Source: Magnetococcales bacterium (GTDB taxonomy: Bacteria; Pseudomonadota; Magnetococcia; Magnetococcales; JADFWU01). Taken from it: a DNA stretch of 24,385 bases. The notes beneath the pieces are model-generated. The model saw only the letters and a program-made list of their open reading frames with translations, did no database searches and was not told the DNA's origin. The first letter of the stretch is position 1, and the number at the start of each line of letters is the position of its first letter. The stretch spans positions 1 through 24,385 of the forward strand of contig JADFWU010000045.1 in NCBI GenBank assembly GCA_015234045.1. The letters run 5' to 3'. This document shows, in pieces, positions 1,380 to 16,558 of this stretch. A program made the position numbers and the translations under genes.

Positions 1380-2258
1380 TCAAGGACGGGAAAGATCCAG
1401 AACCTTGTTCAGATCGTAATCAGGCTTGCCGCCAACCCGGGTTACGAACTCAGCAACACGCTCGTCAAGGGTGGGTTTGTCTTCTTTGTAGAATAGACCG
1501 ACAGGAACCTTTTTATTTGGTTCACGACGGGCCAGTTCCATGGCGGCGCCACGATCAGTCACATCATGATCTTCAGAGATCGGGCCAACCAGATCACGAT
1601 AATACTTCACTGTGTCGATCTTGTTAAAGGTCGGACATTGGCTGAAGATATTGACGTAGGAAAAGCCCTTATGCTCAATGGCACCTTTGATCAACGCGGC
1701 ACAATCCCGAGGCTTACCAGCAAACCCTTGGGCGACATAAGTCGCTTTATAGGTGAGCATATAGAGCAACGGATTCAACGGCTCTTCAGGACCACCATAA
1801 GGAGTAGTATAAGCGGTCATTTCTGGACGGGATGTCGGTGAATATTGTCCCTTGGTCAGACCATAGATTCCGTTATCGTACAGGATGTAGGTCATGTTGA
1901 CGTTTTTACGCGCCATATGGGGCATATGACCACCACCGATGGAGAATCCATCACCGTCACCGCCGACAATCAACACAGCCTTTTCAGGCGAAGCCAACTG
2001 GGCACCGGTGGCGACTGCGCCAGCGCGACCATGCAGGGTGTGCATTTTGTAGGAGTCGATGAAGTACGGAGTCCGTGAGGAGCAACCAATACCGGAGAAA
2101 ACCATCAGATTGAGGGGATCAACACCCAGCTCGGAAAGCGCACGATAGATGCCGTTGAGGATGCCATAATGGCCACAGCCAGGGCACCATACAGGAGCAA
2201 CATCGGACTTGTACTCTTTCGGAGTCATTTCAACTTTATGCAGAGCGGCTACACTCAT
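1380..2258 (-). CDS. korB: 2-oxoglutarate:ferredoxin oxidoreductase, beta subunit
   Basis: The beta (thiamine diphosphate-binding) subunit of a 2-oxoacid:ferredoxin oxidoreductase, 292 residues, the usual size for a two-subunit enzyme. In the rTCA direction it would carboxylate succinyl-CoA to 2-oxoglutarate with reduced ferredoxin. Visible motifs: WCPGCGHY (24-31) with C25 and C28, GIGCS (C59) and SQCPTFN (C208) as the likely 4Fe-4S ligands; GDGDGFSIGG (100-109) with YDNGIYGLTKGQ (127-138) as the TPP/Mg site. It overlaps korA by one base (TAATG), indicating translational coupling. Substrate is inferred from context: the adjacent sucCD genes make 2-oxoglutarate/succinyl-CoA more likely than pyruvate or another oxoacid, and a separate pyruvate enzyme is encoded at 12866-16558. 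The subunit alone does not settle specificity. Confidence 0.92.
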   Translation of the reverse strand: MSVAALHKVEMTPKEYKSDVAPVWCPGCGHYGILNGIYRALSELGVDPLNLMVFSGIGCSSRTPYFIDSYKMHTLHGRAGAVATGAQLASPEKAVLIVGGDGDGFSIGGGHMPHMARKNVNMTYILYDNGIYGLTKGQYSPTSRPEMTAYTTPYGGPEEPLNPLLYMLTYKATYVAQGFAGKPRDCAALIKGAIEHKGFSYVNIFSQCPTFNKIDTVKYYRDLVGPISEDHDVTDRGAAMELARREPNKKVPVGLFYKEDKPTLDERVAEFVTRVGGKPDYDLNKVLDLSRP

Positions 2259-3973
2259 TACACCATCTCCTTCACTTTATCAACGATCATGGCCGGTGTG
2301 AACGGCAACCCACCACAGATGGTGTAGGGGATCGGCTTCAAAGATGTCTCAGCCCGCAGGAAGTGGGAGAGCTGTCCCTGGAAGTTGACCTCAGGCACGA
2401 GAATCTGCTTACAGGTGCTGTTGAACGCTTCGTACTGATCAACGGGCATAGGCCACATCAATTTCGGGTACATCGCTTTTACTTTGTAACCTTGTTCTAC
2501 CAGACGTGCAACACCTTCGCGCACAACACCAATGGTTGAACCCCAGGTGATGATACCGATATCCGCTTCGCCTTCAACACCATCCAACTCGGCTGGCGGA
2601 TAACGATCCACAATCGGTTTGATTTTGTCAAAACGTTTGCGGTGCATCAACTCATGATTTTCCGGTGCATACTTGGGCGCACCATCTTCACCATGCTCAA
2701 GGCCGGTGGAGATATGCATGGCACCAGGTGTACCGGGATTAGCCATCGGAGAAATCAGGTCATCTGTGAGCTGATAGCGTTTATATGTGCCTTGTCCATC
2801 CCACAATTTCCGGTCAACAATTTTATAGGAACCGGGTTTCGGTGTGGGAATTGTTTGAGTCGAAAAGGCCAGAGAGCCATCGGACAATAGAATGACGGGA
2901 GTCTGATACTCTTCGGCCAGATTCAGCGCTTCGATGGTCATTTCAACGCAGTCTTGCACATGCTCAACGGAGAGCACGACACGCGGCGCATCGCCATGGA
3001 CACCATGGATAGCCAGGAACAAGTCAGACTGTTCATGCTTAGTAGGCAGGCCAGTGGAGGGTCCACCACGCTGCACATCCACCAGCATCAAAGGTGTCTC
3101 GGACATGGCAGCCATGCCGAGCATCTCAGACATCAGAGCCAAACCAGGACCGGATGTAGCGGTCATGGACTTGGCACCGGCATAGGATGCACCGAGAACC
3201 TGTGAAATCGATGCGATTTCATCTTCAGCCTGAACCAAGGTGCCACCAATTTTTGGAATGTGAATAGACACATACTTGGCGACTTCAGTGGCTGGCGTGA
3301 TTGGATAAGCGGAGAAGAAATCCAACTCACCAAGAATCGCGCCCAGACCGACAGCATCATTACCAGCAATGATGATAACGTCTTTAGGATCTTGAGCTTC
3401 TGCGAGTGCCCACTCGTCTTTTTTCTCTAAAGCGGCGGCAAGTTCTTTACCTTTTTCGAATGCAGCAAGGTTGATACTAAGAACTTTTTCGCCTTTTTTA
3501 GCAAACTTGTCAGTCAGAACGCGGATCAGTGTCTCTTCAACGATATTGAAAAGAACCGAAAGCGCCCCGAGTGCAACCATGTTCTTAGCGCGGTAGGAGC
3601 CAAGCTCTTTCGCGGTAGCGGACATGGGAATAGGATAGCCTGCAACACCCTCTGGGATTTCAGGTTCAAAATCTCCACCGGGATAGTCATAGACAATGGC
3701 TGTACCGGGGGTGAGCAGATGTTTATTCAGCTCATAGGCTTCGCCGTTGAATGCGCAGAAAACGTCAAAGGTGTCACCTTGGTTCCAGACCTTATCCGCG
3801 GAAGCGCGGACCTGGTACATGGCATAACCGCCTTTAATTTCCGCAGGAAAGGTTTTGAAGGTGTACACTTCAAGACCAGCACGGGCACAAGCCGAAGCGA
3901 TGAAATCACCTGATGAGATGATACCTTCACCGCCCTCACCGGCTACCCGAATGATGAGGTCTTTTTTCTCCAT
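2258..3973 (-). CDS. korA: 2-oxoglutarate:ferredoxin oxidoreductase, fused gamma-alpha subunit
   Basis: A 571-residue catalytic partner of korB with a fused gamma domain (about 1-190; RVAGEGGEGI near residues 9-18 is the gamma-domain glycine motif) followed by the alpha domain (about 195 onward; SAYPITPATE 221-230, TSGPGL 273-278, QRGGPSTGLPT 301-311). This gamma-alpha plus beta architecture is that of two-subunit enzymes in rTCA bacteria and archaea; no ferredoxin-like delta domain is present, so electrons pass directly to external ferredoxin. The start ATG at 3973 has AAGGGGA upstream. The gap to sucD is 56 nt with no terminator, supporting one transcript with sucCD. Together with KorB it forms the CO2-fixing step after succinyl-CoA synthetase. 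The oxoacid specificity is inferred from neighbours. Confidence 0.92.
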   Translation of the reverse strand: MEKKDLIIRVAGEGGEGIISSGDFIASACARAGLEVYTFKTFPAEIKGGYAMYQVRASADKVWNQGDTFDVFCAFNGEAYELNKHLLTPGTAIVYDYPGGDFEPEIPEGVAGYPIPMSATAKELGSYRAKNMVALGALSVLFNIVEETLIRVLTDKFAKKGEKVLSINLAAFEKGKELAAALEKKDEWALAEAQDPKDVIIIAGNDAVGLGAILGELDFFSAYPITPATEVAKYVSIHIPKIGGTLVQAEDEIASISQVLGASYAGAKSMTATSGPGLALMSEMLGMAAMSETPLMLVDVQRGGPSTGLPTKHEQSDLFLAIHGVHGDAPRVVLSVEHVQDCVEMTIEALNLAEEYQTPVILLSDGSLAFSTQTIPTPKPGSYKIVDRKLWDGQGTYKRYQLTDDLISPMANPGTPGAMHISTGLEHGEDGAPKYAPENHELMHRKRFDKIKPIVDRYPPAELDGVEGEADIGIITWGSTIGVVREGVARLVEQGYKVKAMYPKLMWPMPVDQYEAFNSTCKQILVPEVNFQGQLSHFLRAETSLKPIPYTICGGLPFTPAMIVDKVKEMV

Positions 3974-4029
3974 AGAAATTTCCCCTTACTTTTTTGTCTA
4001 TTAGTGCGAGTGTGACCGACTCAGCCAAG

Positions 4030-4899
4030 TTACTTCAGCGCTTTCTTGGCAACTTTACCGAGTTCCGCAGGGGAGCGGGCAATGTGAACGCCGGCCTCCT
4101 CCAGAGCGGCAAACTTCTCTGCCGCTGTTCCTTTACCACCGGCGATGATTGCACCGGCATGTCCCATCCGCTTACCTTTGGGTGCGGTGGCACCGGCAAT
4201 GAAACTGATCACCGGTTTTGATACATTTTTCTTGATGAACGCGGCGGCTTCTTCTTCAGCCGTACCACCGATTTCACCGATCAGGATGATAGCTTCGGTT
4301 TCGCCGTCTGCCTCGAAGCGCTCAAGGCAGTCAATGAAGTTTGTACCATTGACCGGATCGCCGCCCAGACCAACACAGGTGGTTTGTCCAAGACCATTTT
4401 CAGTGGTTTGTGCAACCGCTTCATAAGTCAGGGTACCGGAGCGTGAAACCACACCGACACAGCCTTTTTTGTGGATATGTCCGGGCATGATGCCGATTTT
4501 GCACTCTTCCGGGGTGATGATGCCAGGGCAGTTAGGCCCAATCAAGCGGACATCTTTATCAGCCAGGAAAGCTTTGACGCGCACCATATCAAGTACCGGC
4601 ACACCTTCGGCGATGCAGACCACCAAGTCAACACCTGAGACAGCGGCTTCCATTACCGCATCAGCGGAAAAAGCAGCGGGCACGTAGATTACCGTAGCGT
4701 TTGCGCCGGTTTCTTTAACAGCTTCAGCAACGGTATTGAATACTGGACGGTCGAGATGGGTTTGCCCACCTTTACCGGGTGTTACACCACCGACAACGGT
4801 AGTGCCATATGCGATTGCCTGCTCAGAGTGGAACGTGCCATTGGCACCGGTGAAACCCTGAACGAGTACTTTGGTATCCTTGTTGACCAGAATGCTCAT
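4030..4899 (-). CDS. sucD: succinyl-CoA synthetase, alpha subunit
   Basis: The 289-residue alpha subunit (E. coli SucD is the same size) of succinate-CoA ligase. It carries an N-terminal CoA-binding Rossmann fold ([12 protein letters not shown] 13-24) and the phosphohistidine motif RMGHAGAI with His247, which relays phosphate between nucleotide and succinate. In this operon the enzyme is expected to run in the ATP-consuming direction, making succinyl-CoA for KorAB, although the reaction is reversible and the sequence itself does not show direction. Only 7 nt separate it from the sucC stop, with GAAGGG upstream of the ATG, so the two subunits are cotranslated. No missing motif or truncation is seen. 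Confidence 0.97.
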
Positions 4900-4906
4900 G
4901 AGTTTC

Positions 4907-6070
<1,164 letters not shown>

Positions 6071-6233
6071 GGGGTCTCCTGGTTAGCCTTCTGACAGGCA
6101 AGGTGCTTTTCCTCTCTGACAGGATAAGCCGGTGCTGTCCTTTTCTATATGGTCAAACTGGTTTTATACCAGCGTCAACACGCAAAAAAATTTCCCTTAT
6201 ATATCAATATTTCCAATCATGAACAAGGGATTG
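6071..6233 (-). promoter_or_regulatory. frdA-sucC intergenic region with short dyad
   Basis: On the minus strand this 163-nt gap contains TTGACG followed by CTGGT-ATAAA-ACCAG and then CATATAGA. The dyad (arms on plus strand 6159-6173 region) and the TTGAC/TATA-like elements could be an internal promoter with an operator for sucCDkorAB, but element spacing does not fit a clean sigma-70 promoter. Two CTGACAGG direct repeats also occur at about 6090 and 6116 on the plus strand. No clear terminator is visible. Confidence 0.3.
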
Positions 6234-7916
6234 TCACTCAATATCGAGGTCATTTTGCCGCACACCCACTTGAATTCCTTTAGGTCCATACTTAGGAAGA
6301 AGCGTTGGTGCTTTGTTCTTTTTAGGAATACCAGCTTCCTGTAATTCCTCAAGAAATTGCTCAAGATGTCCGAGACCGGGCGCACCACCTTCACCCAATT
6401 TTTGGGCAAAATCAGCTGCCGAACGGCCTGCTCTGAGACCGAACACAATAATTTCCAGCAGAGCATTACCCATCAGACGATTGCTACCATGCACACCGCC
6501 GGTCACTTCACCAGCGGCATAGAGTCCTGGCATATGAGTACCGCCATCGGGTTCGATGGTTAAGCCACCATTTTGGTAATGGAGGGTTGGAAAGGCAAGA
6601 ATCGGCACTTCGCGGATATCGATACCTTTACGAATGAACTCTTGGAAGCGTCCGGGAAATTCGCGTTCAATGGTGCCACGACCGTGCAACAGCTCGATCA
6701 TGGGAATATCCAACCAAACGCCCATGGAGCCATTCGGCGTTTCAACGCCATTATTGAACTCCACACATTCGCGGATAATGGCGGCGGTGGTGACATCTCG
6801 CGGTTCCAGACCAAACACAAACTCATCACCATGGCGATTGAGCAGTTGTGCGCCAAGTCCTCTGAATTTTTCAGTCAGCAACAGACCGGATTTCTGTTCG
6901 GGAAAAGCGATGCCTGTGGGATGGTACTGCGTATGCTGAAGATCCTGTAACGGCATTCCAGCCCGATACGCCAACACCAAGCCATCGGCAGTAGCGCCAA
7001 AATGGTTAGATGTCGGAAAATTCTGTTGATGGAGCCGGCCCGAACCACCTGTCGCAAGAACAACTGATTTTGCTTTGATAATCAGGGTCTTTTTAGAGGG
7101 TGACAGACGTTCGACAATCGCACCGACCAGCCGTCCGGCATCATCGGTGAGGAATTCCACTACGGGTGCGAAGTCGATCACCTTGATCCGGTCCATGGAT
7201 TCGGCTTGATCTTGCACCACGCGCATGATCTCCAATCCGGTGACATCACCGCAGGAGTGGAGTCTTTTACGAGAGGTGCCGCCACCGTGACGCACTTTGA
7301 TTCGGCCAGTGGGATATTTATCGAACAGCACGCCCAGCTCTTCCAGCCAGCGTAGGGCGTGTGGGCCATCCATGACCAGGGCTTCAACCAATTCAGGATC
7401 ACTGGTGAAGTGTCCGCCGCCCATCACGTCTATGTAGTGATGCAGCGGCGAGTCACACTCTTGATCTGCGGCCTGGATACCGCCTTCGGCCATCAGGGTA
7501 TTGGAATCACCGTGGCGTAATTTTGTAGCGATCAGTACATTAGCGCCCTGCTCTGCTGCGGCGATAGCGGCGGCAGTTCCAGCGCCACCGCCACCGATCA
7601 CCAGGACATCGGTTTCGATATGGGGTTTAAAGTTGCGCCGTTTGGTAACAGCCGAACGTGGCCATGTTTCCAACAAATCAGCGAGTTCATTGGGTGCCAG
7701 CTCGCCGCGATTGGGGCCGATGATCAGTTCGCGCTTGCCCTCTTCTTTGTAATCGGGGTGGAACTCTTCCAGCCATGCCATTCGATCACTGAGAGACAGG
7801 GGTGGGAAGTTTTCGCCCATGCGGATAGCGCTTACACGATCTTGGCGGGTATTTTCCACCATGCGTATGGAGCGGCGCATATTTTGTGGCAAGGGATATG
7901 GATTTTCAGCGGCCAT
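6234..7916 (-). CDS. frdA: fumarate reductase flavoprotein subunit (soluble type)
   Basis: A 560-residue FAD subunit of the succinate dehydrogenase/fumarate reductase family, expected to reduce fumarate to succinate in the rTCA cycle. Residues 1-100 are an N-terminal extension unlike E. coli FrdA; the Rossmann motif GGGGAG is at 108-113. Active-site features are present: TQYHPTG (His332), TEKFRG (Arg352), HYQNGG (His447) and HGSNRLMGNALLE (Arg480). The position of the His that covalently holds FAD in membrane-bound enzymes is Asn139 (DSNTLMAEGG), so FAD should be non-covalent, as in soluble relatives. Only 80 residues follow Arg480, so the usual C-terminal helical domain is reduced. No anchor subunit genes are adjacent. 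The 12-nt gap to frdB and AGGAG before the ATG indicate an frdBA operon. A thiol- or NADH-linked donor is possible; the sequence does not show which. Confidence 0.9.
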   Translation of the reverse strand: MAAENPYPLPQNMRRSIRMVENTRQDRVSAIRMGENFPPLSLSDRMAWLEEFHPDYKEEGKRELIIGPNRGELAPNELADLLETWPRSAVTKRRNFKPHIETDVLVIGGGGAGTAAAIAAAEQGANVLIATKLRHGDSNTLMAEGGIQAADQECDSPLHHYIDVMGGGHFTSDPELVEALVMDGPHALRWLEELGVLFDKYPTGRIKVRHGGGTSRKRLHSCGDVTGLEIMRVVQDQAESMDRIKVIDFAPVVEFLTDDAGRLVGAIVERLSPSKKTLIIKAKSVVLATGGSGRLHQQNFPTSNHFGATADGLVLAYRAGMPLQDLQHTQYHPTGIAFPEQKSGLLLTEKFRGLGAQLLNRHGDEFVFGLEPRDVTTAAIIRECVEFNNGVETPNGSMGVWLDIPMIELLHGRGTIEREFPGRFQEFIRKGIDIREVPILAFPTLHYQNGGLTIEPDGGTHMPGLYAAGEVTGGVHGSNRLMGNALLEIIVFGLRAGRSAADFAQKLGEGGAPGLGHLEQFLEELQEAGIPKKNKAPTLLPKYGPKGIQVGVRQNDLDIE

Positions 7917-7928
7917 AAATGCGTTCTC

Positions 7929-8663
7929 CTACAGCATGGAGCGGTCTTCAGGCAACCAGGTACCCGGAGGGGCATCGCCCGGTTCACGCTCTTGGCGCTG
8001 ATATAGAATGCGCAACGCGTCCATGTCCACTCTTCGCAGACGTTCCATGTTGCGTTGGAATTTTTCGTCTTGGGTCCGTTCGACGGATTTGGTGAGGTGT
8101 TCAGCTTGTGGTGCTTGGTGACGACCGTAGAAGCGGCGGGCTGCCAAGGCGGCGTTGGGCTGAGAGATCTGTGCTGGACAGCGCAACGCGCAGGCCTGGC
8201 ACTGAATACAGGTAAACGAGGCCTCAGCCGCGTGACGCAGGTCACCGCGTTTGATCATGCCGACATAGCCCATCACATCCAATCCCATGGGACAGACACG
8301 CACGCATTCGCTGCACATGATACAGCGGTTTACTTCCGGGTAGAGTGCCACGACACGATAATCGGCTGTATCGCCTTCGGGCAGTTCGAGATCATAGCGT
8401 GCTTTTTTCTGGGGAAAGGCGGGCAACGGCATGATATCCATGCCATCAATCACCGGATCTTGGCACATCAATCCAGCGTGGAGTTCGGGTTCACCGTCAA
8501 CACGATAGAACACGGTACAAGCGCCGCAGACACCGCCACGACAGCCAATACCACGAACAAAGCGCAAACCAATCTCTTCCAAAGCGGTTAGGATCGTCCG
8601 CCCACTGGGAACCGTGTACGGCTCACCATCGTATTGAATAGAGATGTGATCAAGCTGATCCAT
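7929..8663 (-). CDS. frdB: fumarate reductase iron-sulfur subunit
   Basis: The electron-transfer subunit partnering FrdA, 244 residues from ATG at 8663. I chose this ATG because AAGGAG lies 4-5 nt upstream; a GTG at 8678 in the same frame lies 5' of that Shine-Dalgarno sequence and is unlikely. Domain order: plant-type 2Fe-2S domain with C41, C46, C49 and C67 (GCRGGVCGACTVF), then alpha-helical ferredoxin domain with C114-C117-C120-C124 (CIMCSECVRVCP) and C152-C155-C158-C162 (CIQCQACALRCP). In classical FrdB the last motif lacks the second Cys and holds a 3Fe-4S centre; here four Cys suggest a second 4Fe-4S, as in soluble TfrB-like proteins. The C-terminus (205-244) is charged. It is first in the frdBA-sucCD-korAB operon and follows a candidate promoter at 8776-8840. 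Confidence 0.9.
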   Translation of the reverse strand: MDQLDHISIQYDGEPYTVPSGRTILTALEEIGLRFVRGIGCRGGVCGACTVFYRVDGEPELHAGLMCQDPVIDGMDIMPLPAFPQKKARYDLELPEGDTADYRVVALYPEVNRCIMCSECVRVCPMGLDVMGYVGMIKRGDLRHAAEASFTCIQCQACALRCPAQISQPNAALAARRFYGRHQAPQAEHLTKSVERTQDEKFQRNMERLRRVDMDALRILYQRQEREPGDAPPGTWLPEDRSML

Positions 8664-8775
8664 AGGACTCCTTAGCACGCTTGCGCATCAACGCCGCCTC
8701 ATTTTGCACTCTGACTATGCGCTGTTCACAAGCCTTATCCTACCAAGCAAAATTAGCGCGTTAGGATGACACAAA

Positions 8776-9776: not shown

Positions 9777-9867
9777 GGCAGTTGTATCCTCAGTATTAAT
9801 ATAGCTCAGTACACTTCATATATTGACACTCAATCCTATTGATTTAGTTCCATTTGACTGATTTTTT

Positions 9868-9938
9868 TCTTTACATGGAATTGTACTACATTCTACGATT
9901 ACTACAATAGGAGACCAAACATGGAGTTACGCAGTTGA
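9868..9938 (+). promoter_or_regulatory. orphan promoter, RBS and start codon cut by an insertion sequence
   Basis: On the plus strand TTGTAC, 16 nt, TACAAT (about 9883-9908) form a good sigma-70-like promoter, followed by AGGAG (9909-9913) and ATG (9921-9923). The frame then stops after five codons, because GGAGTTACGCA, the presumed end of the transposase remnant, begins at 9923. This looks like the head of a former plus-strand gene whose body is gone. Confidence 0.4.
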
Positions 9939-10720
9939 CCCCATCGGTAGGGTGCAAAACGGTTTTGCCAAATAGAAGCGCACTGCTTCCCGGATGATGC
10001 CGGTTTTGATGTCAAACCAGCTACGACCGGTGAAAACTGAACCGCTCTAAGCGGAGGAAAGCCCGAATAGCGCATCCAATGTGATTGCGTTGAGCGATAG
10101 CACCACGGACCTGAGAACGTTCAACTCCACAGAACTTTTTGAGGCCCCGATGGTAGTTTTCAATAGCCCAATTCCGCTCCGTATAGGGCAGAATCGAGAA
10201 CTCGTCCGAATCAAGATCATTGGTAGCCCAGTGCTCAATGTCTCCGTTTTGGGATTCAATCTCGAACACTTTTATTAGGCCAAACCCTTTCAGGTGAACC
10301 TCGGTTCCTTTCCGGGAAATTTCGACTTTACTGATGGGAACATTCCCGGACCGATCCGGGTTCACAAGTCGATTAGATTTTAGGCGTGTTACCCATATCC
10401 AACCGTAATTTCGAACTAATTTAAGATTTTCCAGGCTGCTATACCAGCTATCAAACAATACCCAACCATCATTCCCTTCACAACCGCTTGTACACCACCC
10501 TGGTTACCTAATCCGCCCGGTCAGAGGACGGACGGATTCGCCATGCGATAGGTATCACTCCTTTCGGAGATGATACGCTTGGTGCGTGTGTATGCCCCTG
10601 TTTTGATCTCAGAGTGTGCCAAACAAAGAATAACAGGCCCACTCTGCCATTCAAAACAACCATCCAACCACCACACCTATCCACCAGCAAGGAGAAGTTA
10701 ACCACGGCAACAACCCGGTT
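9923..10720 (-). mobile_element. truncated insertion sequence (IS4-like DDE family)
   Basis: The element includes one presumed terminus, GGAGTTACGCAGTTGACC at 9923-9940, about 80 nt past the transposase stop, and the decayed transposase 10021-10705. I find no matching inverted end (TGCGTAACTCC) between 10700 and 11500, so the transposase 5' side of the element appears lost. The right boundary is approximate. Family placement rests on the transposase C-terminus only. Confidence 0.55.
10021..10705 (-). pseudogene. DDE transposase remnant, frameshifted and 5'-truncated
   Basis: The C-terminal 145 residues (10458 to 10021) are clearly a DDE transposase of IS4-like type: LFDSWYSSLENLK contains a catalytic-type Asp, WVTRLKSNRLV follows, and ERNWAIENYHRGLKKFCGVE holds the conserved Glu with the Y-(2)-R-(3)-...K signature. 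The coding sense continues upstream in the same frame as EGNDGWVLFDSWY but soon meets a TAA near 10503. The preceding part is found in another frame (10705-10508), ending GVIPIAWRIRP, a pattern typical of the region between the first and second catalytic Asp. At least one frameshift and loss of the N-terminus therefore make it non-functional. No helper ORF is visible. Confidence 0.75.
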
Positions 10721-10762
10721 TCCTCACAGGTGAAACTGGCCCCGGTATCATGCGTATTGCAT

Positions 10763-10817
10763 AAGGGCCATCGCGCAGCGCCTCTTGTGTGTCGAGGAGC
10801 GATGGCCCTTTCTTTTT
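10763..10817 (+). terminator. strong terminator-type hairpin without a plus-strand gene
   Basis: AAGGGCCATCGC (10763-10774) pairs perfectly with GCGATGGCCCTT (10799-10810); CCTC/GAGG extends the stem inside. A T-rich tail TCTTTTTT (10811-10818) follows on the plus strand. On the minus strand the preceding A tract gives no T tail, so it mainly suits plus-strand transcripts, yet no intact plus-strand gene precedes it. It may be the tail of the gene destroyed at 9923, and may also stop the minus-strand gene ending at 10835. Confidence 0.7.
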
Positions 10818-10834
10818 TCGAGAGGGATCAGTCA

Positions 10835-11314
10835 CTAATACTGCTGTAACCTATTTTTTTCCAGCATAAAATTATAATTCCAAGCCGCCTTAGTAACTGC
10901 TGACAAACCCACATGAAACGGTTTGCTGCCCCGATTTTCATACCATCGAATCACTTGATAGAGATGCCATAACGGATTGGAACCCGTAATAATTGGCGGT
11001 GGAAATTTTGTCAGTTTCCGTATGTTTTGACGTGACTGTCCCAACATTTCGGCAATATATGTCAAACTGACCAAATCCGGTTTAACTTCCAAAATCTCCG
11101 CTTCAGGATAGGCCGATTTAACATCTTCAATGGCTGAAGAAATAGCCATCTCAGCCGAATCAGACACTCTATCAAATGTTAAGCCTATCGTCCCTCTAAG
11201 CCCGGTAAAAACCGTTGCATCATCACAACCCGCATCAAAAAGCGTATTGGAGATCAATTCGACATCCCACTTTTGACTCGAAATTGCACAAGTGATTGTG
11301 AACTCAAAGCTCAT
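10835..11314 (-). CDS. helix-turn-helix DNA-binding protein of a two-gene module
   Basis: A 159-residue protein with an alpha/beta N-terminal domain (about 1-78; AGCDDATV 28-35, GTIGLTFDR 41-49, SAIEDVKSAYPEAE 60-73) and a helix-turn-helix at about 82-102 (VSLTYIAEMLGQSRQNIRKL), followed by an AlpA/MerR-like wing segment PPPIITGSNPLWHLYQVIRWY (105-125). I know this arrangement as a recurring family paired with a very small protein; the N-terminal domain has a HicB-like feel but I cannot show homology. Start ATG at 11314 overlaps the stop of the upstream small gene (ATGA) and has AGGAG 7 nt upstream, within that gene. It is likely an autoregulator, perhaps the antitoxin-like half. The remaining residues after 130 are basic and aromatic. 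The partner gene is broken, so this one may be a relic though its own frame is intact. Confidence 0.75.
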   Translation of the reverse strand: MSFEFTITCAISSQKWDVELISNTLFDAGCDDATVFTGLRGTIGLTFDRVSDSAEMAISSAIEDVKSAYPEAEILEVKPDLVSLTYIAEMLGQSRQNIRKLTKFPPPIITGSNPLWHLYQVIRWYENRGSKPFHVGLSAVTKAAWNYNFMLEKNRLQQY

Positions 11315-11547
11315 TGGTTATTCTCCTGACATCCATCAACAGCTTTCCGTATCTGCCGTGCATGGTTGGCTGAATTTCTAGGTGTAGACCATACTGAGAC
11401 TTGGCATTATATGCCCCCACGACACCTGTCATTTGTCGGACATCTCAAAATCCCAAAACAATGACCCAAACTTTTTCTAAACGTCCACCTATTCTTAACA
11501 GCATGTTTTATGGCCTGCTGAATCTCTTTGTTAGCGTGCTTTCGCAT
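11311..11547 (-). pseudogene. small HicA-like partner protein, interrupted by an in-frame TAA
   Basis: Reading from ATG at 11547, 78 sense codons in one frame contain a single TAA at codon 47 (plus 11407-11409). Before it: MRKHANKEIQQAIKHAV, then WTFRKSLGHCFGILRCP; after it: CQVSVWSTPRNSANHARQIR and a final DGC. These blocks match a family of about 80 residues that I know to sit directly before the HTH protein: KHxNKxI opening, a G-H-x-(F/W)-G core, CP, and (S/I)WSTPRNxxNHARQIR. The pattern of a short basic domain with a glycine-histidine core resembles HicA-type dsRBD-fold RNases, which is inference. The two genes overlap by ATGA. The stop could be a substitution or a six-base ATATAA insertion: removing it gives GGCQVSVW, which also fits. 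No in-frame restart is apparent. Confidence 0.7.
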
Positions 11548-11899
11548 TGTATTTCCAAAGCATTATTTCATAATCATCATATTCTTCATTAATAACATAC
11601 TTTGGAACAGGTTGTCGATTGACAACCTGTTCTCACATTTTTTTGGTCATCTTTTATTCTCAACTTTTTTGTTTTGGCTTGGTGTTATAGTTATTTCGAT
11701 TCAAAACTTGACAATGAATCACAACCTGAGTGGGCTATGATCAGCAGAAGATGCCGATGTATTCATGAAGCCATTTTACGCCGTTTTTTCTCCGAGAAGA
11801 ATGGTAGGAGACCAGTGCCAGAATAACAGATGGTTGCTATATCTTCCGATCTCGTTTTTTGTGGTCGGCAGCTAGGGATGATGTGTTACAATGTATACA
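11548..11899. other. gene-poor AT-rich stretch
   Basis: No convincing gene is visible. The stretch contains the dyad at 11605-11632 and, just before the MITE-like element, the 10-bp palindrome ATGTATACAT (11891-11900). Short open frames here have no ribosome binding site or recognisable product. Confidence 0.6.
11605..11644 (+). terminator. perfect 12-bp hairpin followed by T tract
   Basis: GAACAGGTTGTC (11605-11616), loop GATT, GACAACCTGTTC (11621-11632), then TCACATTTTTTT. This has the shape of a Rho-independent terminator on the plus strand, although the T run starts 5 nt after the stem. No plus-strand gene precedes it. A dyadic operator for the minus-strand small-protein/HTH pair is the alternative, since it lies about 60-90 nt upstream of that start. 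Confidence 0.5.
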
Positions 11900-12105
11900 T
11901 AGTGCTTGAACGAAAGCTAAATTTCATCGTGTTTTCAAACTATTAAGCAAAGTTTCGAGAACGAAGATTTTGTCATCATAGCGTCTGACCAGGACTTGAT
12001 TCTTGGAAACAGCGATCTGGAGTCAATTTCCAGGAAATCTTCGTTTTGAAAATCCGTTATAACAAATTGATTCAATGCTTATTTTTAGTTTTCGTTCAAG
12101 CACTA
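11900..12105. mobile_element. MITE-like element with 22-bp terminal inverted repeats
   Basis: The left end TAGTGCTTGAACGAAAG (11900 onward) and the right end, read inward from 12105 as TAGTGCTTGAACGAAAA, match over 22 bp (through CTAAA) with one mismatch. Both ends carry TA, as expected for insertion at TA by IS630/Tc1-mariner-like transposases. A second pair, ACGAAGATTT at 11961-11970 and AAATCTTCGT at 12035-12044, lies at the same distance (61 nt) from each end, so the whole 206 bp can fold as an imperfect hairpin. It has no coding capacity. It ends 34 nt upstream of the antitoxin start codon and so replaces or supplies its promoter region. Confidence 0.65.
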
Positions 12106-12139
12106 CTTACTAAATGCTTTGATCTGACGGAGCCCATCA

Positions 12140-12418
12140 ATGTCTGCAAGTGCAACGCTTACCCTCAGGCTTGAGCCTGAGTTAAAAGAGCAGCTGGATC
12201 AATTGTCACGCAGTACTAAGCGGAGTAAATCATTTCTGGCGGCAGAGGCCATCCGGAATTTTATCAGCACAAATGCTTGGCAGGTTGATGCAATCAAGAA
12301 TGCTGTGGAACAAGCGAATAATGGTGGCCCCTTTGTTGCGCATGAAGATGTGGCGGCATGGGTTGAATCCTGGGATACGGAAAATGAGCTGCCGCGCCCC
12401 AAATCCACCAAGATGTGA
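12140..12418 (+). CDS. ribbon-helix-helix antitoxin of a type II toxin-antitoxin pair
   Basis: This 92-residue protein has an N-terminal ribbon-helix-helix (CopG/RelB/ParD-type) fold: TLTLRLEPELKEQLDQLSRS strand and first helix (about 7-26), then KRSKSFLAAEAIRNFIS as second helix (28-44). The C-terminal half (about 50-92) is acidic and Trp-containing (EDVAAWVESWDTENELP), typical of the disordered segment that wraps the toxin. Start ATG has ACGGAG 8 nt upstream. The toxin follows 10 nt after its stop. Family knowledge predicts it represses its own operon as dimer or toxin complex; I see no clear operator because the MITE-like element lies directly upstream. Confidence 0.9.
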   Translation: MSASATLTLRLEPELKEQLDQLSRSTKRSKSFLAAEAIRNFISTNAWQVDAIKNAVEQANNGGPFVAHEDVAAWVESWDTENELPRPKSTKM

Positions 12419-12428
12419 TCATTGAGCC

Positions 12429-12716
12429 ATGGATATTATCTGGTTGGGTTCAGCACTGGATGATTTGCGCAGTGCTCAGAACTATATCGCAAAGGAAAAC
12501 CCTTCAGCTGCAAAATGGATAGTCCAAAAAGTCGTTCATGCAGTTCAAGGTTTGGCGACACATCCTCATGTCGGGCGCCCAGGTCGGGTTGTTGGTACTC
12601 GGGAGTTGGTAATACCTGATACGCCGTTTATCGTTCCATATCAGGTGATGAGAGATCGTCTGGAGATATTAAGAGTACTTCATGGTGCACAGTTGTGGCC
12701 GGATCAGCTTGATTAG
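12429..12716 (+). CDS. RelE/ParE superfamily toxin
   Basis: A 95-residue toxin of the RelE/ParE fold. Diagnostic segments: helix LDDLRSAQNYIAKENPSAA (10-28), then HPHVGRPGRVVGTRELVIP (about 46-64), PFIVPYQVMRDRLEILRVLHGAQLWP (about 66-91). The G-R-x-(6)-TRE pattern and LRVLHGAQ-W ending are shared by ParE-like toxins; RelE ribonuclease catalytic residues cannot be read with certainty, so gyrase poison versus mRNA interferase stays open. TGAG lies 3-6 nt before the ATG, and close spacing after the antitoxin suggests coupled translation. The pair is the only plus-strand gene set in the window and lies in the accessory stretch, consistent with horizontal acquisition. Confidence 0.9.
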   Translation: MDIIWLGSALDDLRSAQNYIAKENPSAAKWIVQKVVHAVQGLATHPHVGRPGRVVGTRELVIPDTPFIVPYQVMRDRLEILRVLHGAQLWPDQLD

Positions 12717-12798
12717 GTTGTATATCCCCACGGAATTTGTAAGGATACCCATTATATAACGCCTCAGCCTCAACCCACTTGGAACAGCGAGGAGCCAC

Positions 12799-12828
12799 AA
12801 AAAAGGCGTGTGCCTCTCGACACACGCC
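12799..12828 (-). terminator. Rho-independent terminator of the pyruvate:ferredoxin oxidoreductase operon
   Basis: On the minus strand GGCGTGTG, loop TCGAGAGG, CACACGCC (plus 12805-12828) forms a perfect 8-bp stem followed directly by T6 (plus 12799-12804). It lies about 40 nt past the stop of the delta-beta chain gene and also separates it from the convergent toxin gene. Confidence 0.9.
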
Positions 12829-12865
12829 CTCTCTCTCGTTCACACCTATTTCAACGGTCTAATAA

Positions 12866-14476
12866 CTAGCCCCGATCAAGATTCTTCACACCAGCCAACT
12901 CCTGCAACAATCGCCAGTTAGCCAAACGATCCGCCTGCGACTCCGCCAACAAGTCAGAATGTTTGCCTTCTTTATTAAAATGCTTCTGGAAACGTCCTTC
13001 AGTCCTGGCAAAGGAGATAAAGTCAACCAACTCACCTTCACCCTCTTTTGACTTGCGACGATGCCAGTCACGATTCACAGAAGGATTGCCCTGCAAGGAC
13101 AAACGATCAGCAAAAGTCTCACCACCCTCAGGATCATAAACAAAGACCGGGAAGGCACGTGATTCAACAGCCAACATCGCTTGCTGTGCAGAAACATCAT
13201 CAGCAACCTGATGCTCAGGCTGACAGGTGGTGTATACGTTGATCAAAGCCGGTCCGTCATAGTCCAACGCACGCTCTACCGCTTTGTAGAAGTGGTTGGT
13301 CATCGGTCCAACAATCTGAGCAACGAAAGTGTTCGGATGCATCATAGCGATGTTGCCGATCTCCTTACGCGCTTCAGTCTTGCCGCCAATACTCTTGCCA
13401 TGGAATGACATCTTGGCATCCTGACCGATGTATGTACCGGTAGAAGCCTGACCACCCGTGTTAGAATAAACCTGTGTATCAAGCACCAATGCCTTGATGT
13501 TCATGCCGGAGGTCAACATGCGCGAAAGCGCCTGGAAACCAATGTCCAACATGGCACCATCACCACCAAATGCCCACAATACATGATCTTTACGACCAGT
13601 CCGATCCCAAAGAGCACGCACACCCATGGCAACCGTTGGCGCATTCTCAAATAATGAGTTGCTCCAGGGTACACGGAATGGATTGTAAGGATAGGTGGAA
13701 CCATACACCGTGTTACAACCAGTCGCCGCCGTAATGCCGTATTTATGACCCACTTTTTCGTAAGTCATGGCCAATAGCTGACGAATTACCGAAGTCTCAC
13801 CACACCCCATGCAGGAACCAGCGCCGCCAACATACTGATTGGCATCTTCCTTGAGCATGATATCCACTTTCAAACGTGGATTGATGTATACCTCTGGCGT
13901 GCTCGGAACCTGCTTGTAAAAATCCCACATGGAGAAGAAATTAGGCAGATTGTCTTTGGTCTTCTTGATCATCCGCAGTGCCTGGTCGTCACAGACAACC
14001 ACACACTCGCCGCAGCCCTTACATTTTGTCGGATCAATAAAGATCGCAAAATGAGCCCCACCCGGTGAATTGGGATCTTTAGCCTTTTTCTTCTCGTATG
14101 TCTTCCAAAACTTGGTCGTCTCGGCATACTGATCACGCAACATCTTGCGCTCGTCTTCATCCTCAATCTTGGCCAGCTGGGCTTCCAACTCTTCAGGCGT
14201 TGTCACGATGCCCCAGATGGATGAATCAGGACAGTTCTGAACACAGTCCATACACGCTGTGCAGTTCTCTGCAATGTATTCTGGTAAGTCCGGTGCGATG
14301 TATGAAAAATCCCGGTGCGAACCCGTCGCCGCTGGAACCAGTGAACATCCCACAAATGGGTCCGCAGCCTGTCCTGAACCTTGTCCAGTATTGTAAGCCG
14401 TTAAGATGGCTTGGGCGCGATCCATGTCATACCACTCGGGCGTGGCTTCTGTGTAGATCTTGGCGCGTTGTGTCAT
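12866..14476 (-). CDS. pyruvate:ferredoxin oxidoreductase, delta-beta chain
   Basis: A 536-residue chain equal to the C-terminal part of single-chain PFOR. Residues 60-165 form the 2[4Fe-4S] ferredoxin domain (C72-C75-C78-C82; C152-C155-C158-C162); 215 onward is the TPP-binding beta domain. The proximal cluster ligands are CMGC (C222, C225), TGCN (C254) and TTCQPE (C418). The TPP/Mg signature is GDGAMLDIGFQ (305-315) with DTQVYSNTGGQAS (333-345). In rTCA metabolism it would carboxylate acetyl-CoA to pyruvate using reduced ferredoxin; in other settings it oxidises pyruvate. Start ATG has GGAGG 7 nt upstream; the gap to the alpha-gamma gene is 45 nt, so they form one operon. The second ferredoxin motif is followed by Asp rather than Pro. 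Substrate is inferred from strong PFOR-type motifs. Confidence 0.93.
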   Translation of the reverse strand: MTQRAKIYTEATPEWYDMDRAQAILTAYNTGQGSGQAADPFVGCSLVPAATGSHRDFSYIAPDLPEYIAENCTACMDCVQNCPDSSIWGIVTTPEELEAQLAKIEDEDERKMLRDQYAETTKFWKTYEKKKAKDPNSPGGAHFAIFIDPTKCKGCGECVVVCDDQALRMIKKTKDNLPNFFSMWDFYKQVPSTPEVYINPRLKVDIMLKEDANQYVGGAGSCMGCGETSVIRQLLAMTYEKVGHKYGITAATGCNTVYGSTYPYNPFRVPWSNSLFENAPTVAMGVRALWDRTGRKDHVLWAFGGDGAMLDIGFQALSRMLTSGMNIKALVLDTQVYSNTGGQASTGTYIGQDAKMSFHGKSIGGKTEARKEIGNIAMMHPNTFVAQIVGPMTNHFYKAVERALDYDGPALINVYTTCQPEHQVADDVSAQQAMLAVESRAFPVFVYDPEGGETFADRLSLQGNPSVNRDWHRRKSKEGEGELVDFISFARTEGRFQKHFNKEGKHSDLLAESQADRLANWRLLQELAGVKNLDRG

Positions 14477-14521
14477 TGATAATCCTCCAAACGGGCAGTG
14501 TATCCCGTGAATCTGAGCGAC

Positions 14522-16558
14522 TTAGATGAAGAAGGCGTTGACATCCTTGCCCTTGGCATCCCACTCTTCACGTCCCTGCTCCAACAACTCAGCCGGTGTC
14601 GCATCCATGATGTCCTGGGTCACTTCCATCACACGGTTATAGCCCCGTTTGACAGCATCCAGGTTGTCGTCAACAACCTTTTGACCACGCTTGCCGAAGT
14701 ACTTGTTCAACGGCTTGCGAACCTCAGCAAAAAGATCCTCCTCAGACATTTTGGCGTTCTCTCTGAACGGTGTAACCCGAAGGAATACACCCAACAGAAC
14801 CACACCCTGAAAACGCTGAATCAAGGAAGGATCTGACAAGCAGGACTCCCGAGCGATCTCAATGGTGTCTACGCCGAAAAAGCGGACCTTGTTCTCTTTC
14901 ATAAAATACTTGGCATAGGGCGGTAGAGAATCCCACAAATCTTCCGGAGTCTTCTCATCGGTGTGTTGAAACACACTACCACCATCCTGAATGCCTACAA
15001 GCGGGTTGCCCATGTACCATGTCGTAGGATCCATCAATGGTACAAAATCAACCTGCTGCAATTCACAATGTGTCAGAATCTTACCAACGGGTGTAACGGT
15101 CAAATACGTGTTGGTCGGCAGACCTTTCTTCTCAGAACCATACTTTGGCGCAGCCTGTACACGGAATCCGAAAATATCACCCAACATGGTCGCGATAACC
15201 TTGTTGGTGGTGACCGAACCAAAACCACCCACCGAGTGAACACGCACTGAGAATGAACCCTCAGGACGAACATCCGGCTCTTCTTCCATGGCCAATGCAC
15301 TTGGATGATCAATACCCAAAGAGAAGAACCGCTTGCCGGTTCCCTGCCCTTGGGACATGTTTTTGGCTACGGCAATAATGGATCCCGGTGTCACGTCACG
15401 TGAACCCAGACCCGCTGTTCCCGAAAACACAAACGGCATGATACCCAGTTTCGGAAAGCCCTCAACCCACATGGCCGCTTTGGCCAAAGAGGCTTCCACA
15501 TCCGTGGTGAGCGGATTGTCAACCATGGTCGGAATGTCGCAACGCTCAAGAACTGAAACAGCTTTACAGTTCTGAATCGCCTTAACCACCTCAGCCGCTG
15601 GGAACGGACGATAGCAGGTGATGTTGACCACACCTACCTTCATGCCGTGTTCCTTACGGATCGTCTCAAGGGCAGACATGGCTGTCTCAGCCAATGTACC
15701 CATGGCGATAATCGCATAATCCGCATCGTCCATCATGATGGTGTCAATCAGATTGTAACGACGACCGGTCAAGGCGTAGTACTCATCCATGGCATTCTGA
15801 AGAACACCAGGAAGTTGATCGTAAAAATGACGCTGGGCAACCTTACCTTGCATGTACGCATCGGTATTTTGAACCACACCCGATTGAAGCGGTGCTTCAG
15901 GATCAAACAGGTTACGCATTCTTTCGCGTGGATCACCCAGATACTCACGAATCAACTCGTCTTCGGGGTAGTCCAGGTTTTCAATGGTATGGGTTCCGAG
16001 GAAGCCATCCTGAACATTCATAAACGGTGTCAATCCGTCTTCAGCCGCCCGGCGGCCAATAAGACAAAGATCAGCACTGGCTTGAACACTCTGAGCAAAC
16101 AGAATCCCCCAACCGCAATCCGCCACACCCATCACATCATCATGACCGGCATGCACATTCAGCGCTTGTGATGTCAGTGCGCGGGCACCAACGTTCAACA
16201 CCATGGGAAGACGCTTACCCGCTGAGGTGTAAAGCACTTCCTTCATCAGGATGAGTCCCTGACCTGAAGTGAAGTTGGTCACCCGGCCACCGGCCAAAGC
16301 AAACCCTTCACAAGATGAGGCGGAAGAGTGCTCAGACTCCAACTCCATCCAGGCGAGGTCATTTCCCCAGACGTTTTGAAAGCCGTTCGACACCGCCAGC
16401 TGAAATAGCTGGCCCATGATAGTGGATGAGGTGATCGGATACGCCGCAGCGCCGTCAGTAGCGCGGGTCTCAACATACGAGATCGCGTCCGATCCATCAC
16501 CCGTTCCCGGAATTCCGGGAAAGCGGAACGTCTTTTGATTGTCTGATGCGGTGGCCAT
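14522..16558 (-). CDS. pyruvate:ferredoxin oxidoreductase, alpha-gamma chain
   Basis: A 678-residue chain equal to the N-terminal part of single-chain PFOR. The alpha domain (about 25-410) carries AAYPITSST (38-46), FTSGQGL (96-102) and the RPFP loop (317-320); the gamma domain (about 436 onward) carries VGGFGSVTTNK (443-453), the counterpart of the GLGSDGTVGANK motif. Together with the 536-residue chain the total is about 1,210 residues, close to single-chain PFOR (E. coli YdbK/NifJ 1,174), with the split between the gamma and ferredoxin domains. The operon starts here: AGGAG precedes the ATG at 16558 and about 280 nt of noncoding sequence lies upstream. It encodes the acetyl-CoA to pyruvate step that drains the rTCA cycle into biosynthesis. 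Confidence 0.93.
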   Translation of the reverse strand: MATASDNQKTFRFPGIPGTGDGSDAISYVETRATDGAAAYPITSSTIMGQLFQLAVSNGFQNVWGNDLAWMELESEHSSASSCEGFALAGGRVTNFTSGQGLILMKEVLYTSAGKRLPMVLNVGARALTSQALNVHAGHDDVMGVADCGWGILFAQSVQASADLCLIGRRAAEDGLTPFMNVQDGFLGTHTIENLDYPEDELIREYLGDPRERMRNLFDPEAPLQSGVVQNTDAYMQGKVAQRHFYDQLPGVLQNAMDEYYALTGRRYNLIDTIMMDDADYAIIAMGTLAETAMSALETIRKEHGMKVGVVNITCYRPFPAAEVVKAIQNCKAVSVLERCDIPTMVDNPLTTDVEASLAKAAMWVEGFPKLGIMPFVFSGTAGLGSRDVTPGSIIAVAKNMSQGQGTGKRFFSLGIDHPSALAMEEEPDVRPEGSFSVRVHSVGGFGSVTTNKVIATMLGDIFGFRVQAAPKYGSEKKGLPTNTYLTVTPVGKILTHCELQQVDFVPLMDPTTWYMGNPLVGIQDGGSVFQHTDEKTPEDLWDSLPPYAKYFMKENKVRFFGVDTIEIARESCLSDPSLIQRFQGVVLLGVFLRVTPFRENAKMSEEDLFAEVRKPLNKYFGKRGQKVVDDNLDAVKRGYNRVMEVTQDIMDATPAELLEQGREEWDAKGKDVNAFFI

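Follow-up and report, generated by a model that had tools for sequence, protein, structure and literature searches.

A candidate toxin-antitoxin-like module with an interrupted HicA-like gene and a conserved palindrome in a Magnetococcales genome

In a stretch of 24,385 nucleotides (nt) from a Magnetococcales bacterium (assembly GCA_015234045.1, contig JADFWU010000045.1, positions 1 to 24,385; hereafter, the window), a small gene interrupted by a stop codon, gene A, overlaps an intact gene, B, coding for a helix-turn-helix (HTH) protein; this two-gene module is found across many bacteria. We consider it likely that A and B form an autoregulated type II toxin-antitoxin-like module, made of a HicA-like toxin and an antitoxin other than HicB, whose toxin gene was recently inactivated in this genome. 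The features discussed below are as follows:

11311-11547, minus strand: gene A (PDC-M06A, HicA-like), interrupted by a TAA at 11407-11409, with a final TGA at 11311-11313; recognised by profile matches.
10835-11314, minus strand: gene B (PDC-M06B), intact, 159 aa, with a predicted ferredoxin-like domain (1-80), an AlpA-type HTH (84-127) and a C-terminal helix (135-158).
11323-11327, minus strand: Shine-Dalgarno-like AGGAG of gene B, within the A frame, read from the sequence.
11605-11632, no strand assigned: candidate operator, a perfect 12-nt inverted repeat, GAACAGGTTGTC-N4-GACAACCTGTTC, from a repeat search and conservation.
11613-11618, minus strand: TCGACA within the operator, a putative -35 box (TTGACA in most homologues).

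The A frame runs on the minus strand from 11547 to 11311 and counts 78 codons ahead of its final TGA, namely 77 sense codons and one TAA at codon 47; its translation reads MRKHANKEIQQAIKHAVKNRWTFRKSLGHCFGILRCPTNDRCRGGI*CQVSVWSTPRNSANHARQIRKAVDGCQENNQ*. An initial annotation of this DNA had placed the TAA correctly, with a sense count of 78 that has to be lowered to 77, and it had rightly described both the ATGA by which the small frame overlaps the HTH gene at 10835 (the final TGA of A at 11311-11313 and the ATG of B at 11312-11314, a 4-nt overlap) and the loss of the small half with the HTH frame kept, B being intact at 159 aa. On its sequence, gene A is a real broken gene, more than a chance open frame, because a single profile runs through the stop, from residue 2 to residue 77 (PADLOC PDC-M06A, 8.3e-28, with the stop read as X, the masked search that the annotation had proposed) and because A homologues without interruption occupy the same position next to homologues of B. 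Apart from the stop, the window's A keeps every residue that does not vary among 48 intact homologues, so that the loss of A looks recent; the AGGAG of B sits within the A frame, and B is therefore translatable despite the early end of A. Reading the stop as a recoding event was rejected, the long genes in the window being read normally with table 11 and giving no sign of a second code.

With the same masking, A matches PHROG 5923, of unknown function (1.2e-18), and B matches PADLOC PDC-M06B over its length (8.6e-47). PDC-M06 is an unpublished phage defence candidate of PADLOC, the matches to its two proteins adjoin here, and no paper naming it was found in the literature searched. Pfam and NCBIfam searches returned no significant match for A or B, searching PDB sequences with the profile of A gave chance matches only, and an Rfam search of positions 9800-13000 gave no match.

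The two genes travel together. In a phylum sample of 398 genomes, 22/22 strong A matches come with a strong B match at the adjacent position of the same genome (a second phylum sample, centred elsewhere, consisted of the same genomes), every A match in two order samples likewise has B beside it, and intact pairs occur in two genomes of the window's order; the family described in the initial annotation, pairing proteins of about 80 residues with HTH proteins of about 150, does exist. Among the 53 loci where both genes are recognisable, the stop of A is within 70 nt of the start of B in 48, and 24 score as overlapping, so that next to a homologue of the HTH gene the small gene is nearly always present. 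The order is A then B, as for hicA-hicB in E. coli. The pair also occurs in SSU5-type phage-plasmids and in 110 of 5426 E. coli genomes, where every copy is plasmid-borne; phage Cyrano has it as CYRAN_51, annotated as a HicA toxin, and CYRAN_50, annotated as a putative antitoxin HicB, and in the lysogen their transcription reaches 30x and 14x the local background, respectively (PMC9928086).

Upstream of A, at a distance of 51-79 nt, lies the inverted repeat 11605-11632, whose core, GTTGTC-N4-GACAAC (11611-11626), starts 73 nt before the start codon of A. Of 60 upstream regions from homologous loci, 20 contain the exact core derived from the window, compared with 5 of 4336 control windows; over the 60 flanking bases, identity to the window is only about that expected by chance (0.18-0.42). 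With up to 2 mismatches allowed, GTTGWC-N4-GWCAAC is present at 50 of the 53 loci versus 1.0% of control windows; it is perfect at 24 loci, mostly 37-56 nt upstream of A, and the copies in the window and in Cyrano are perfect. The type of half-site tracks the type of HTH: B proteins of the RQN/RQY type go with GTTGTC/GACAAC half-sites (18/18 with a site) and those of the RAA type mostly with GTTGAC/GTTAAC, these counts being uncorrected for shared descent. This conserved palindrome and its relation to the HTH type are new here. Conservation thus marks the palindrome as a candidate operator, to which B may bind; the site usually holds TTGACA, so that the -35 box would lie under a repressor bound to it. 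On the plus strand, the palindrome has in addition the score of a terminator-like hairpin; its role as a terminator only was rejected, as the core recurs upstream of A between unalignable flanks. A linked bicistron with a palindromic operator at its promoter, the layout expected of type II toxin-antitoxin systems, is therefore what we found, in keeping with the toxin-antitoxin-like or regulatory bicistron proposed at the outset.

Gene A is broken or gone beside a kept B in the window and at loci L007, L019, L033, L041, L098, L112 and L234, and less clearly so at L002, L102 and L104. At L007 (Pseudolabrys, 2757-2999), a TGA falls exactly at a conserved cysteine codon and is likely a nonsense mutation; A carries a frameshift at L019, an insertion and a frameshift at L041, multiple lesions at L033 and an internal deletion at L098, and it is absent at L112. 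At L098 and L112 the operator stays with B, at L112 60 nt before it. L234 is the complete phage-plasmid pYLMB53a of E. coli MB53, in which the centre of A is lost, the flanks of A are near-identical to Cyrano, and the operator and B are kept. Across the genome samples to which both profiles were applied, a full-length B without an intact A was found seven times and the reverse never (7:0), an outcome with a chance of about 5e-4 if lesions scale with gene length, B being twice as long as A. One-way loss fits a toxin with its antitoxin, and this pattern is expected where losing the toxin is harmless and losing the antidote harmful.

The structure of A was modelled on an intact homologue from Tardiphaga (L012, 26-row alignment); the predicted fold is alpha-beta-beta-beta-alpha, with a mean predicted local distance difference test score (pLDDT) of 84. 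For this model, Foldseek ranks two HicA chains highest, both from 6g26 (E 0.28; probabilities of 0.85 and 0.82). In VIA-align, HicA-type chains take ranks 1, 2, 3, 5, 7, and 8, with Z from 5.4 to 4.0, a root-mean-square deviation (rmsd) of 2.6 to 4.4 and 54-60 residues aligned: 5yrz (Z 5.4, rmsd 2.6, 57 aligned), 6g26 (Z 5.0), 1whz (4.9), 4p78 (4.5), 6hpb (4.2) and 4c26 (4.0). These predicted matches are modest in score, yet their concentration on one family, HicA, is specific. The GxH histidine of A, corresponding to the one that HicA toxins carry in a G-[S/T]-H motif ahead of their second strand, is invariant in 48/48 intact homologues and is kept in the window, and a weak profile alignment places the GW..GH of A on the GW..GSH of HicA; three other conserved residues, C39, C47 and C72 (L012 numbering), are cysteines not found in HicA and perhaps form a metal site. 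A is thus probably a small member of the HicA (dsRBD-like) superfamily, acting as an RNA-cleaving or RNA-binding toxin, and the resemblance of the small half to HicA claimed from the sequence holds in the model of an intact homologue. By the same model, the TAA after 46 residues leaves A without the latter half of its HicA fold.

B is predicted to fold as beta-alpha-beta-beta-alpha-beta, followed by the HTH and a C-terminal helix (mean pLDDT 93.7). In structure comparison, its first 80 residues match ferredoxin-like folds; its HTH, as had been noted for the larger half, is real and of the winged AlpA type, with a match to the AlpA structure 8c3t (E 0.007, profile positions 85-139) that concerns the C-terminal domain only, and PGAP assigns some E. 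coli homologues to the AlpA family. Downstream of the actinobacterial relatives of A (hhalign 98% to A), in some cases with a 4-nt overlap, come genes for HTH-less proteins of about 120 residues, and the profile of these proteins can be aligned (71%) with the ferredoxin-like domain of B. A branch of this type is present in viral contigs (L225-L229), with an A-like protein carrying a CPCG..SPSDPNYVKN motif and a ferredoxin-like-only partner, without a Pfam match; at L094, A is kept with a B cut to its ferredoxin-like domain. These HTH-less partners point to the ferredoxin-like domain as the part of B that would meet A, with the HTH as the regulator. We lean, by a little, towards the broader view that these modules form a distinct toxin-antitoxin class, in which HicA-superfamily toxins with extra cysteines would be neutralised by a ferredoxin-like antitoxin domain instead of HicB; that domain would be the constant partner (alone in the actinobacterial relatives and L094, elsewhere fused to an AlpA HTH), under one ancient operator, GTTGWC-N4-GWCAAC, shared across phyla.

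The module would, then, work as follows. A, presumably toxic through its action on RNA, would be bound and neutralised by B via the ferredoxin-like N-terminal domain; the AlpA-type HTH of B, probably dimeric, would bind GTTGWC-N4-GWCAAC over the -35 region of the promoter, and B, free or bound to A, would shut off the A-B operon. In the window, A would end after 46 residues, with B, the ribosome-binding site of B and the operator left in place; the cell would thus retain an orphan antitoxin/repressor, as expected if toxin loss is tolerated.

One has to keep in mind several points that weigh against this toxin-antitoxin reading. The fold scores are modest, the best VIA-align Z falling in a range that the tool calls common; the hhalign comparison of A with HicA is weak (23%), and so is the match of A to the "HicA-like" profile of PADLOC (0.0045). 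A does not match Pfam PF07927 (HicA_toxin). The A proteins of the actinobacterial branch do not have the GxH histidine, so that catalysis may not be general. The 7:0 asymmetry is a small count, of which two cases are less clear, and it would also arise with any dispensable A or with a B that has a function of its own. Finally, a shortened B stands beside a kept A at L094, though the part that remains is the putative antitoxin domain.

Some of these points would suit a role for A other than that of a toxin, in which it works with B as a switch for regulation or immunity (for example as a co-factor binding RNA or zinc, or as an immunity protein of a phage-plasmid), with B as the essential regulator and A dispensable. 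The conserved cysteines, which HicA does not have, point to a metal site; in the actinobacterial branch they are kept and the histidine is lost; and B matches the phage family PHROG 2620 ("excisionase and transcriptional regulator"). We nevertheless hold such a switch to be unlikely: the fold matches are headed by HicA structures, and the operon has the layout usual for toxin-antitoxin systems, with an A of 80 residues closely linked to an antitoxin-like B, an operator of the autoregulatory type and loss in one direction, that of A. It is less likely still that the TAA reflects a sequencing, assembly or strain-mixture error, with A intact in the organism. The host genome is a draft of 117 contigs, 93% complete, and every invariant residue of A besides the stop is kept; however, the long genes of the window are uninterrupted, and other assemblies, one of them that of a complete E. 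coli plasmid, show independent losses of A beside an intact B, and we infer that the stop is present in the living population.

A bona fide HicAB with an unusual HicB would agree with the annotation of the Cyrano genes and with the gene order and HTH of class 3 HicAB, and it is nonetheless very improbable. B has no Pfam or NCBIfam HicB match, and its hhalign comparison with HicB gives 0.7-1.9%; on this profile comparison and on the topology of its model, B was rejected as a HicB, its predicted N-terminal fold being a different one. HicB was not among the 50 structure matches listed for B, which does not exclude HicB and was not used as evidence. Of the HicA/HicB resemblance that structure prediction was expected to reveal, the A half thus stands and the B half does not. 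Least probable of all is an excisionase-like B of a mobile element, with the palindrome as a Xis or terminator site and A as a passenger: the AlpA/Xis type of the HTH and the hairpin score of the palindrome would allow it, whereas the palindrome keeps its position at about -40 to -56 of A family-wide without its flanks, goes with B after A loss (L112, L098) and matches the HTH type.

The host genome has no match to PF07927, whereas several relatives have up to seven. The surroundings of the A-B pair include, at a distance of about 600 nt and oppositely oriented, a second toxin-antitoxin pair (12140-12716, plus strand) made of a RelB/CopG-type antitoxin and a ParE/RelE toxin; the two pairs make up a small toxin-antitoxin cluster between central-carbon genes. 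The island is flanked on the minus strand (1380-8678 and 12866-16558) by genes for 2-oxoacid:ferredoxin oxidoreductases, succinyl-CoA ligase and fumarate reductase-like subunits, possibly those of a reductive tricarboxylic acid cycle. A DDE transposase remnant (PF01609; 10021-10458, minus strand) lies just downstream of gene B, and a strong plus-strand hairpin, AGGGCCATCGC...GCGATGGCCCT followed by TTTCTTTTTT, occupies 10763-10812 (z -2.4), with no recognised plus-strand gene ahead of it.

With respect to known systems, the pair is that of PDC-M06, both proteins matching, except that A is broken here; the PADLOC name and the HicA/HicB label in one phage-plasmid (PMC9928086) were already known, and the description of the fold, of the operator and of the antitoxin domain is new. 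PDC-M06 can be moved from an uncharacterised defence candidate to a specific toxin-antitoxin hypothesis, which suggests that a HicA-type toxin may pair with an antitoxin domain unrelated to HicB; the natural losses of A beside a retained B, in this genome and in the E. coli phage-plasmid, are ready material for testing whether A is a burden. CYRAN_51/50 belong to the same A and B families with the same operator, and they differ in being intact and in residing on an E. coli phage-plasmid, their HicA-HicB label coming from annotation only. AlpA phage regulators share the HTH of B, to which B adds the N-terminal ferredoxin-like domain and a partner, A. HicAB has in common with the module an alpha-beta-beta-beta-alpha toxin with a GxH histidine, a toxin gene placed first, a linked DNA-binding partner and a palindromic operator; the A-B arrangement is not among the 14 HicAB contexts listed by Gerdes (mBio 2024, PMC10865869), and the module differs from HicAB in the extra conserved cysteines of A, which does not match the Pfam toxin family, and in its partner, RNase H-like in HicB and, as predicted here, ferredoxin-like with an AlpA HTH in B.
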